IMG/VR virus record: IMGVR_UViG_3300010354_000263
Coordinates: 1 to 35,455 of that record
DNA: 35,455 bases
Reading direction: 5' to 3' (one strand)
Source: a virus
Shown here: positions 7,950-27,456 of the stretch, one piece after another
How positions within the stretch are numbered: the stretch's first letter is position 1
Layout: each line of letters starts with the position of its first letter
Translations under genes and position numbers: made by a program
Notes under the pieces: model-generated
Databases searched by the model: none
Told to the model about the DNA's origin: nothing
What the model saw: the letters and a program-made list of their open reading frames with translations, nothing else

Positions 7950-8135
7950 ATGGAAGATCGATTCACAAAGGCTGACCTCAAGGGAGTGGCGAGCGACATC
8001 CTCGCTCAGTGCCGCGAGGAGTACCCTGCCGAGGTCTACGACGAGGCGGTCTCGGACATGTGTGAGGCCGTGATCTGCGCCGAAGGGTTCTCCCGCTGGG
8101 AAGCCGAACTCCTCCGGGAGTTCTGCGGGCTCTGA
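7950..8135 (+). CDS. Second member of the ISQCKEEY/LAQCREEY group
   Basis: This gene encodes 61 residues. It aligns along most of its length with 676-849: DIL-AQC-REEYP matches DII-SQC-KEEYS, followed by DEAVSDM/DETVADM and an AVI segment. The -10 is at 7918-7923, where AAGATGG replaces the usual spacer. The start follows an ACGAAAGGA site only 6 nt away. It precedes the large orphan-promoter RNA. Confidence 0.75.
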   Translation: MEDRFTKADLKGVASDILAQCREEYPAEVYDEAVSDMCEAVICAEGFSRWEAELLREFCGL

Positions 8136-8147
8136 ATCTAAAGATGT

Positions 8148-8153
8148 TATAAT
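8148..8153 (+). promoter_or_regulatory. -10 box of a third orphan array promoter
   Basis: TCTAAAGATGTTATAATGATCTT is identical to neighbouring gene promoters such as those at 7416 and 7660. No start codon with a ribosome site follows for about 330 nt. Confidence 0.75.
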
Positions 8154-8159
8154 GATCTT

Positions 8160-8433
8160 GTCACGGAGCATCAGCCCCGCGGCAAGTGCCAGCAAGCTGC
8201 TGGGACGAAGAACATACCGTCAGCACAAGCCTCTCCGAAGATAAGGCTCCGCCGACGCGCGATAGCGGCTCTGATCGACCTAGGCGATCATCCGGCTCCC
8301 TCCGCCGAAGCGACCGTCCTCCTCTCGCGACGCATCCGTAAGCGGGTGATGTGAAGTCCTGCGGATCCCGGCCAGGGTCCGCACAGCAGTGAGGGTCGCT
8401 CCCTCCGCTGGCACTTACCGTAGGGCTGATGCT
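8160..8433 (+). ncRNA. Candidate 270-nt highly structured phage RNA
   Basis: Two nested perfect 10-bp long-range helices close this stretch: GCATCAGCCC (8168-8177) with GGGCTGATGC (8423-8432), and AAGTGCCAGC (8184-8193) with GCTGGCACTT (8407-8416). Inside are hairpins TGCTG-GG-ACG/CGTCAGCA (8198-8225), AGCCT/AGGCT (8228-8248), TGATCG/CGATCA with a CCTAGG loop (8272-8290), GCGGA-T-CCC/GGGTCCGC (8361-8382) and GAGGG/CCCTC (8391-8405). A local hairpin, CCAGCA/TGCTGG (8189-8203), competes with the second long helix. An array promoter precedes it and the 3' closing strand abuts the next promoter. No convincing gene was seen. It did not look like RNase P, tmRNA or 6S RNA. The RNA is inferred; the helices are directly visible. 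Confidence 0.75.
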
Positions 8434-8480
8434 TCTAAAGAAGTTATAATGATCTTACAAGCACGACGAAAGGACACACG

Positions 8481-8765
8481 ATGAACACGACAGACCTCAC
8501 CCCGCTCTCGGACGAGTGGCTCGAGTGGGCGCTGGCCCACGGCGGACCCGGCGACATGAACTCGGCGCCGTACTTCCAACAGCTGCCGACGATCGAGCAC
8601 CGCGTACGGGCACGCCGCGACGCCATCTACACGATGAACTGCACCGGCGGCAACTACTCCGGCGCGGTCTCCTGCGCGGTCGCCGCGATGCTGCGCAACG
8701 GCCTCGACGCGCCGACCTCTGCGGAGGAATACGCCGAGCGTCTTCGAAAGGAGCGCGGTCGCTGA
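8481..8765 (+). CDS. Hypothetical protein
   Basis: This gene encodes 94 residues with the -10 at 8445-8450. The N-terminal part is acidic and Trp-rich (LSDEWLEWALAHGG). The central part is basic, with one Cys pair (C54, C63) and a Gly/Ser stretch, and the C-terminal helix is charged (AEEYAERLRKERGR). Copy 5 of the recurrent hairpin begins two bases after the stop codon. No family is assigned. Confidence 0.75.
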   Translation: MNTTDLTPLSDEWLEWALAHGGPGDMNSAPYFQQLPTIEHRVRARRDAIYTMNCTGGNYSGAVSCAVAAMLRNGLDAPTSAEEYAERLRKERGR

Positions 8766-25218: not shown

Positions 25219-25290
25219 ACATCAACAATGTCAGAATGTACAGCCTTTCTTCATTATTTCACAAACTTCCTTCTGATCAGGGGGAATACG

Positions 25291-25327
25291 CCTAGGCGCG
25301 GTGGATCGCACGACCCTAGGCGCGGTG
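25291..25327 (+). repeat. GGCGCGGTG repeat, pair 1
   Basis: The 13-mer CCTAGGCGCGGTG occurs at 25291-25303 and 25315-25327, 24 nt apart, at the left edge of the low-complexity tract. Confidence 0.75.
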
Positions 25328-25993
25328 AACCACGACGCTCTGGCCGCCTGACCACGATCCTGCCATGGCCACCATGCCTACCATGCCAGGGCCACCCCGG
25401 ACCGCACACTGGCCCTGGCCCTGACCGCCATGGCCCGACTGCCATGGCCATGGCCGTTGCCTGCCTGTGGTTCATGCGGGCAGGCCTCCACAGCCGCCAT
25501 GCCCTGGCCTTGCCCTGGCCATGCCTACCTGCCATGGCCCTGCCCTGGACCGCCCTAGCCATTGCCCTGCCCGACCATGGCCGCCCACTGCCATGGCCAT
25601 GCCCGACCGTGGCCGCCTGACCTGCCCGCCCACTACCGTGGCCAATGGCCGCCTCGATCACGCTGGCAGGCCTCTGTGCCTGCCTGCCTGCCTGCCATGG
25701 CCATGCCTGCCTGCCTGCCTGCCTGCCATGGCCATGCCTGCCTGCCTGCCTGCCTGCCTGCCATGGCCACGCCTGTGCACCTGCCTGCCTGCCTGCCTGG
25801 CAGCCCTGCCTGACAGCCCTGCCTGCCCATACAGGCAGGCCCCGACCGACCGGCCGACACTGGCCGCCGCCTACTTGCCTGCCCTGCCTGCTTTTCCTGC
25901 CCTGCCTGCCCTGCCTGCCCTGCCTGCCCTGCCTGCCCTGCCTGCCCTGCCACACGCGCAGGCCTTGGCAGGTTGGCCCTGCCTTCGCACGTA

Positions 25994-26032
25994 TAGGCGC
26001 GGTGACTACAGCCGGCCTGCCAGGGCGCGGTG
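25994..26032 (+). repeat. GGCGCGGTG repeat, pair 2
   Basis: TAGGCGCGGTG is at 25994-26004 and AGGGCGCGGTG at 26022-26032, 28 nt apart and about 701-705 bp after pair 1. CCTTCGCACGTA precedes the first unit. Confidence 0.75.
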
Positions 26033-26703
26033 ATCACAGAGCCCTGGCCCTGGCCCTGGCCCCTGCCTGCCTTGGAGGCCCCCATGGCTGGCCCTGGCTG
26101 GCCCTGGCCATGGCCCCCCTCCCAGGCCGCCCTGGCTGGCCGCCTCAGCCTGCCCCCCCGCCCTGGCCCGCCCTGGCTGGCCCTGGCCCTGGCCATGGCC
26201 CTGGCCCTGGCCATGGCCCTGGCTGGCCCTGGCCTGGCCCTGGCTGGCCCTGGCCATGGCTGGCCCTGGCCATGGCCCCGACCCTGGCCTGCCTCGGCCC
26301 TGGCCCTGGCCCGCCCTGGCTGGCCCTGGCCCTGGCCATGGCCCTGGCCCTGGCCCTGGCCCTGGCCCTGGCCGCCGAGGCCATACGGGCAGGCCTCACA
26401 GGCCCCCCTGGCCCTGGCCCTGGCCTGGCCCTGGCTGGCCATGGCCGCCCTGGCCCGGCCTGGCCTGGCCGCCTGGCCCTGGCCCTGCCTGACCGTGGCC
26501 ATGGCTGGCCCCCACCCTGGCTGGCCCTGGCCGCCCATACGGGCAGGCCTACCTGGCCCTGGCTGGCCGCCATGGCAGGCCGCCCTGGCCGCCTGGCCCC
26601 CGCCCTGGCCATGGCCCTGGCCGACCGCCCTGCCTGCCCTTGCCGCCATGGCCATGGGCCGCCTGCGGGCAGGCCACCCTGGCCGCCCTGGCCCCTTCGC
26701 GCG

Positions 26704-26743
26704 TAGGCGCGGTGGCCCTGGCCGCCCTACCAGGGGCGCGGTG
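26704..26743 (+). repeat. GGCGCGGTG repeat, pair 3
   Basis: TAGGCGCGGTG is at 26704-26714 and GGCGCGGTG at 26735-26743, 29 nt apart and about 710 bp after pair 2. CCTTCGCGCG precedes it, matching the flank of pair 2. Confidence 0.75.
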
Positions 26744-27456
26744 GTCCCGGAGGCCTCCCCCCTGGCCCTGGCCATGGCCTGGCCTGCCCCCGCCCCCACC
26801 CTGGCCCGCCTGCCTACCTGGGCAGGCCGCCTGCCCGGCCCTGGCCGGCCTCCAGGCAGGCCCAGCAGGCCGCCACGGCCGCCCTGGCCGCCATAGCCTG
26901 CCTGCAGCCAGCCGACCGGGCCCGCCCGGCCTCCACAGGGCCCCACAGGGCCTCCACATGGCCTCCACCAGGCCGCCTAGCAGGAACCGCCATTAGGCCA
27001 TGCGGGTAGGCCTTTGGGGCCGCCATAGCCATGGCCCTGGCCGGCCTTCAGGTTGACCCCCCCCCCATCGCACCTTCATGACCATGGCCTGCCCTGGCCC
27101 TGGCCGCCTAGGCCGCCTCTAAGGCCATGGCCCTGCCTGACCCTGCCTGACCACCATGACCATGGCCTGCCTGCCCTCCTAGGCCTTCACAGGCCTCGAC
27201 CCTGGCCTGCCTGACCACCAGCCTGACCCTGAACCTGACCCTGACCATCAGCCTCGACCTGACCCACCTGCCTTGCCTGCCTGCCCGACCACGCGACCAC
27301 CACTGATCGCCACGACCGCCTCTGAGGCCCGCCGCCCACGGACCTGCCTTGCCCGACCTTCGACCCTTGCCGGGAAGGCCACGAGGGCTGGAGACACCTG
27401 CGCGACCCTCAGAAGTATCCGACTACACTCTCTCACGCCCAAGCCACTAATGTTAA

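Follow-up and report, generated by a model that had tools for sequence, protein, structure and literature searches.

The locus and its predicted RNA

The window analysed here is an entire virus record of 35,455 bases. Judged by its gene content the phage is an actinophage, since its portal protein has Actinomycetia phage DSL-LC01 as closest characterised relative (80% identity) and it encodes WhiB, ThyX and a two-domain, T4-like terminase (matching Terminase_6N and 6C). Tiny genes are arrayed along the left half of the window, most of them with the promoter box TCTAAAGAnGTTATAATG. Between 58 and 17700 on the + strand there are more than 40 to some 50 near-identical copies of this promoter, with one tiny gene each. 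Several of the array mRNAs are leaderless, with the ATG exactly 7 nt after TATAAT, and others have an AAAGGA leader. Two small genes of about 60 aa, at 676-849 and at 7950-8135 (just upstream of the RNA described below), are apparently paralogous (TNNDIKRLARDIISQ / EDRFTKADLKGVASDILAQ). Further downstream, a low-complexity, strongly strand-skewed region at about 25250-27200 contains long open reading frames in multiple frames that correspond to PWPW/GQGQ-type repeats, and is probably a tandem-repeat spacer between the terminase and portal genes.

The preliminary description placed a gene-free RNA at 8160-8433, driven by a promoter like those of its neighbours (Table 1). The box concerned (TCTAAAGATGTTATAAT, 8137-8153) is indeed one of more than 40 such boxes, and the 7-nt spacing found after TATAAT in the leaderless genes gives the same +1 at 8160. 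Transcription of 8160-8433 is thus predicted from the promoter and from the strand evidence given below. No conserved open reading frame, tRNA or Rfam match was found in 8160-8433, in keeping with the proposed lack of a gene, and the next box begins at 8434, directly where the 3' strand had been said to end. A promoter adjoins the 3' strand of the closing helix P1 in other members of the family too. No terminator-like site was found for the window RNA; U-runs follow P1 in several members of group B.

Table 1. Features of the RNA gene and its immediate surroundings, in window coordinates.
Feature	Position	Strand	Remarks
Phage-type promoter box TCTAAAGATGTTATAAT driving the RNA	8137..8153	+	One of >40 near-identical + strand boxes
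Non-coding RNA, predicted transcript	8160..8433	+	3' end predicted at or just before the next promoter
P1 closing helix, 5' strand	8167..8193	+	Pairs with 8407-8433; 27/27 model pairs doubly changed, 24 sequences
P2, 5' strand CUGCUG	8197..8202	+	Pairs with 8384-8389; model helix 2, 7/7 pairs doubly changed
Outer module, 5' strand GAUAAGGCUCC	8240..8250	+	Near-invariant motif, all members
Inner module, 5' strand, degenerate GAUAGCGGCUCU	8261..8272	+	Putative; place and spelling like the second GAUAAGGCUCU of relatives
Apical hairpin GAUCG-A-CCUAGG-CGAUC	8273..8289	+	Stem pair probability 0.99-1.0
Palindromic loop CCTAGG, proposed kissing loop	8279-8284	+	
Inner module, 3' strand, degenerate AUCCGGCUCCCUC	8290..8302	+	Putative; directly 3' of the apical hairpin, like AUCCGUCCUC of relatives
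Outer module, 3' strand GACCGUCCUCCUCU	8312..8325	+	Near-invariant motif
Extra hairpin UGCGGAUCCC-GGCCA-GGGUCCGCA, window-type	8360..8383	+	Inverted repeat; in the minimum free energy structure
P2, 3' strand CAGCAG	8384..8389	+	
P5 hairpin GAGGG-UCGCU-CCCUC, UNGCN pentaloop	8391..8405	+	4/5 pairs doubly changed
P1 closing helix, 3' strand	8407..8433	+	Abuts the next promoter
Next promoter TCTAAAGAAGTTATAAT, for gene 8481-8765	8434..8450	+	

The strong folding originally noted is reproduced, with a minimum free energy of -129.4 kcal/mol (z = -4.6), a value as low as which none of 200 shuffled sequences gave. Numerous coding stretches of these genomes nonetheless have z-scores of -5 to -8. Energy is therefore not special here, and it is the comparative evidence that decides. 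The two perfect 10-bp complements reported to connect the ends (8168-8177 with 8423-8432, and 8184-8193 with 8407-8416) are present and form one 27-nt arm pair (8167-8193 with 8407-8433) that is 89% complementary. Relative to two near-identical contigs (G001 and G002) the surroundings are about 5% different, and 8048-8524 (477 nt) is the longest identical run in a 4.1-kb alignment along which the phages are about 95% identical. The run was an early hint of selection; because recombination could also give it, distant relatives were sought.

Homologues and covariation

A search with the terminase returned 80 related viral loci, and weak BLAST comparison of those contigs with the RNA gave short matches, two of them collinear in one contig group (G028). 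The matched places were promoter-flanked and gene-free, and had the strings GATAAGGCTC and CCGTCCTCCTCT in common, while their closing helices were of unrelated sequence. Pattern scans of viral contigs with the shared strings then identified homologues in about 30 uncultured contigs, several of which carry two or three copies of the RNA. Many pattern matches were dropped as chance matches in coding DNA. The extracted RNAs are 196 to 318 nt long and mostly 33-65% identical between clusters. Directly upstream of the RNA, 11 of 21 members have a -10 box (≤1 mismatch), compared with 5% of controls.

A covariance model (R1) was built from nine relatives, with the window excluded. It aligned to the window end to end (8167-8434; 60.6 bits, E = 7.2e-20), and the next match in the window scored 4.9 bits. 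When the same alignment was used without structure, the window scored 25.2 bits. Hence, more than half of the score is due to base pairing, and the structure itself is conserved. In 1.24 Mb of sequence, drawn from member loci and related ones, R1 gave 19 matches, all at member loci that had been found by motif. Altogether, 24 distinct sequences were confirmed by the model. Two further loci (L247 and L253) have the motifs and the palindrome but gave no match to R1, and we leave them out of the confirmed set. Members were chosen partly by motif strings; P1, P2, P5 and the palindromes played no part in their selection.

At the gathering threshold, no Rfam 15 family, the 6S, tmRNA, RNase P, GOLLD, ROOL, OLE, raiA and pRNA models among them, matched the window or six homologue loci, and the best sub-threshold matches at relaxed thresholds were those expected by chance. 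BLAST searches with six members detected no homologue among 50,697 GenBank phages, and no copy was found in 396 Actinomycetota genomes under filters stricter than those of the pattern scan of host contigs. That scan, a search of genome contigs for host or prophage copies, yielded 53 matches, about the number expected by chance, none of which had the repeated motifs. Mimicry of 23S rRNA was also considered, and gave no match beyond chance. The suggestion that this is an unfamiliar family, possibly a new class of phage RNA, is thus borne out by the lack of a match to known RNAs and by a model that finds the window RNA after being built without it.

In the 24-sequence alignment, which is fitted to the model, 41 of 50 pairs have changes on both sides, and the covariation score is 0.655, compared with 0.189 after shuffling and 0.10-0.16 with the strands slid (controls that ignore kinship). 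A plain MAFFT alignment gave 29 of 51 pairs and a score of 0.485 versus 0.201, again with controls that ignore kinship. Within group B alone, 28 of 48 pairs covary. Compensatory changes affect 27/27 pairs in P1, 7/7 in P2 and 4/5 in P5, and covarying closing helices are what the preliminary description had named as its test. One helix of the model (helix 3, between two GAUAAGGC copies) is invariant in alignment A1 and probably a repeat artefact. Two of the earlier proposals fared less well. At least five internal hairpins had been said to fill the interior; for the native interior, the homologues point instead to one defined arm. A switch involving a local hairpin that competes with the inner closing helix is unsupported; in the homologues the closing helix is constant. 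The extra hairpin at 8360-8383 has a counterpart only in the G033 copies.

The stems of P1, P2 and P5 contain 91 G-U and 19 A-C cells in the model-fitted alignment, an excess that fits an RNA made from the promoter's strand. The same ratio, about 5 to 1, bears on whether the locus might instead be an origin or cruciform recognised as DNA. Long inverted repeats and hexameric palindromes do also occur in DNA sites. However, the preference for G-U over A-C in this model-fitted alignment, the fixed upstream promoter, the several copies per genome and a P1 sequence that is free to change, unlike a site recognised by protein, make a DNA-level element scarcely credible. Computationally, the comparisons show a conserved structured RNA that is specific to the transcribed strand and consists of P1, P2, P5 and a module arm ending in a self-complementary loop.

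The repeated module and the palindromic loop

Members have GAUAAGGCUCU, in most cases as two copies, and 3' of it CCGUCCUCYUC, again mostly in duplicate. The GAUAAGGCUCU and AUCCGUCCUCYUC motifs occur in all members, the window having one canonical and one degenerate version. The invariance of GAUAAGGCUC and CCGUCCUC partly reflects ascertainment, because the same strings served to find most of the members. The helices just inside the modules differ between members and are complementary within each (UGGAC/GUCCA, UCAUUG/CAAUGA, UUGUC/GACAA, CGGA/UCCG), and none of 5,000 permutations of the inner-helix partners was as good, with part of this score coming from the apical hairpin itself. Covariation of these inner helices suggests that the outer module of the window (8240-8250) pairs with 8316-8324. 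More generally, the pairing appears to be nested, with the outer GAUAAGGC opposite the last CCGUCC and the inner one opposite the first. Each module would then form a compound internal loop comprising GA/UC, a UA/CY loop, AGG/CCU, a bulged U, C/G and a UC/UCC loop.

Nearest-neighbour energies do not predict the module pairing in the window (-120.9 enforced versus -127.4 without it). Moreover, in group A an invariant CCGUCC is complementary to an invariant GACGG near P5 (A1 columns 152-157 and 213-218). This CCGUCC:GACGG pairing, helix 4 of the MAFFT alignment, could be an alternative to the module pairing in a second conformation. Because the energy rules miss the module and group A has the competing CCGUC/GACGG, the module pairing is one that we infer.

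The C/U-rich segments could also be read as an antisense or anti-Shine-Dalgarno RNA, in which the repeated CCGUCCUCCUC would mimic the 16S tail and block host translation by pairing with purine-rich ribosome-binding sites. CCUCCU does resemble the anti-Shine-Dalgarno sequence, and is both repeated and highly conserved. Yet each C/U-rich segment has a GAUAAGG partner that is conserved as strongly, the compensated helices inside the segments point to an internal motif, and the phage's own leaders carry AAAGGA. We therefore regard this reading as unlikely.

The apical loop typically consists of one base plus a hexanucleotide palindrome. Nine hexamers were found at this place: CCUAGG, CCCGGG, CCGCGG, GCUAGC, CCAUGG, CGUACG, UCCGGA, UCUAGA and ACUAGU, the last two in less regular hairpins that fall outside the strict hairpin test. 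A palindromic apical loop was present in 12 of 15 clusters versus 1.5 expected (P about 3e-11) in a test with restricted geometry and position-matched shuffles; a looser version passed about half of the shuffles. The G028b, L201 and L189/L198/L210 clusters have no strict palindromic-loop hairpin and have UCUAGA or ACUAGU at the same place. Paralogues within one phage mostly differ (CCGCGG/ACUAGU, GCUAGC/UCUAGA and UCCGGA/CGUACG), with G045 a/b and G033 a/b as exceptions, as if cross-pairing were avoided in favour of orthogonal self-pairing.

Neighbouring bases of a loop cannot pair with each other in a single chain, and the switching of whole palindromes therefore argues for pairing between two chains. 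The same argument has been used for the OLE and GOLLD oligomers, whose loops switch between tetranucleotide palindromes or between GC and CG (PMC12286853). The CCTAGG loop noted at the outset (8279-8284) is real, and the accompanying idea that it kisses another copy is strengthened by its replacement with other palindromes in relatives. Two copies of the RNA are therefore likely to form a symmetric kissing-loop homodimer via the hexamer loop. The P5 loop reads UNGCN in group A as well as in the window, and most of group B has GACG there; both versions have a self-complementary GC or CG core, and the loop is a possible second symmetric contact.

Relation to known RNAs, carriers and possible roles

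Small phage RNAs that oligomerise by loop-loop pairing are represented by phi29 pRNA. However, pRNA has unlike complementary loops and serves a phi29-type motor, whereas the window phage has a T4-like two-domain terminase; no Rfam match links the two RNAs, and the packaging terminase here is Terminase_6N/6C. Retroviral dimer-initiation hairpins (DIS) combine a self-complementary 6-nt loop with GACG tetraloops alongside. The likeness in hairpin and GACG tetraloop is an analogy only, as the DIS is part of genomic RNA and the present RNA is a separate product of a DNA phage.

Closer in style are GOLLD, ROOL and OLE, although the RNA is a new family and a member of none of them. GOLLD is likewise phage- or prophage-encoded and highly structured, and it assembles into a homo-oligomer through symmetric kissing loops, the cores of which covary while staying self-complementary (PMC12286853). 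It is, however, often >800 nt and located near tRNA islands, whereas the window RNA and its relatives are about 200-320 nt, no tRNA is present in the window, there is no Rfam match, and the fold and motifs are different. ROOL (Rumen-Originating, Ornate, Large) is also carried by phages and prophages, is dispensable and is an RNA-only kissing-loop oligomer, but it measures about 600-660 nt and has many pseudoknots, and the window RNA has no similarity to its Rfam model. The OLE dimer has a symmetric kissing loop that switches between GGCC, GAUC and AGCU (PMC12286853). OLE is about 600 nt, resides in bacterial genomes and has known protein partners, unlike the phage-borne window RNA with its hexanucleotide loop. 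What is shared is a way of working, a symmetric kissing loop with covariation of the palindrome, which is a likeness and not membership.

The chief alternative to a protein-directed role follows from this likeness: the apical palindrome and P5 would link the RNA into a higher-order homo-oligomer, a particle that would be functional in its own right, with no protein partner. Such an assembly is consistent with the presence of two loops whose self-complementary cores covary or switch, and GOLLD, also an accessory phage RNA, switches a GC/CG dinucleotide likewise in its L21a loop (PMC12286853). The size of only about 200-320 nt, compared with roughly 600-850 nt, and the lack of a tRNA in the window argue against it, and the P5 loop evidence is thin, consisting of one dinucleotide. 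On balance, we consider RNA-only assembly rather improbable.

The carriers bear on how the RNA may act. WhiB was found in 18 of 20 carrier contigs tested, and the hosts are therefore taken to be actinobacteria. The RNA appears to cross at least two phage lineages, because the terminase of the window was not found in 17 contigs of other groups, some of which exceed 100 kb. Related phages lack the RNA, among them DSL-LC01, whose genome is complete, and it is thus dispensable; Microbacterium phage Pumpernickel has no copy either. No protein neighbour is common to all carriers, so the RNA probably acts in trans. The RNA has a promoter of its own, sits among varying genes, is patchily distributed and can be multicopy, all of which fits an accessory RNA that acts in trans. 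The same observations weigh on the reading of the locus as a leader that regulates the next gene in cis, or as a riboswitch with tandem aptamers. Tandem modules do recall tandem aptamers, and the RNA lies just upstream of a gene. That gene, however, has its own promoter starting at 8434, flanking genes vary among carriers with no linked gene common to all, and several group-B members have U-runs after P1, which makes a riboswitch very unlikely.

The reading we prefer, with a probability of about 0.72, is that 8160-8433 is a free-standing actinophage RNA gene of a new class, whose product probably forms a kissing homodimer. Its structure and family are well supported and its dimerisation is likely; a function as scaffold or decoy is more tentative. 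The gene is an accessory one with its own phage promoter, and some genomes have two or three copies. Its RNA would join with a second copy through the hexamer loops into a symmetric homodimer; with a further symmetric contact, possibly provided by the P5 loop (UNGCN or GACG), the product could be dimers or larger homo-oligomers. Each monomer would contribute two invariant modules to the assembly, which could serve as docking sites and let the RNA work in trans, in infected cells, as a multivalent scaffold or decoy for a host or phage protein. As dimerisation would double the two modules of each chain, the assembly may offer a multivalent protein-binding surface, and we propose the scaffold or decoy role tentatively, at somewhat less than an even chance. 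The broader view of a self-assembling class of phage RNA, in which distinct actinophage lineages have orthogonal kissing loops and the dimers or larger particles present a tandem module probably aimed at a host factor, seems to us evenly balanced.

Self-assembling ornate phage RNAs such as ROOL and GOLLD rank with the most puzzling RNAs of bacteria, and every known class runs to several hundred nucleotides. At about 200-300 nt, a strongly covarying class with nine natural palindrome swaps, and with paralogues in one genome whose palindromes differ, would be easier to make, probe and solve, and would bring the question of phage RNA homodimerisation within reach of simple gel and pull-down experiments. 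The family also supplies a conserved internal-loop motif, and it provides a case of a non-coding RNA gene spread among unrelated viruses of uncultured actinobacteria. If the interpretation is true, it would be a small-format counterpart of ROOL and GOLLD with a repeated receptor module.

Contig 3300036770_005499 contains two model-confirmed copies (L196 and L201), with the different loop palindromes GCUAGC and UCUAGA, in addition to one motif-only candidate (L247). In contig 3300025872_000063 (G033), the two copies (L256 and L257) are diverged, with identical central parts that may reflect recent duplication or gene conversion, and one of them has an extra GAUAAGGCUC.
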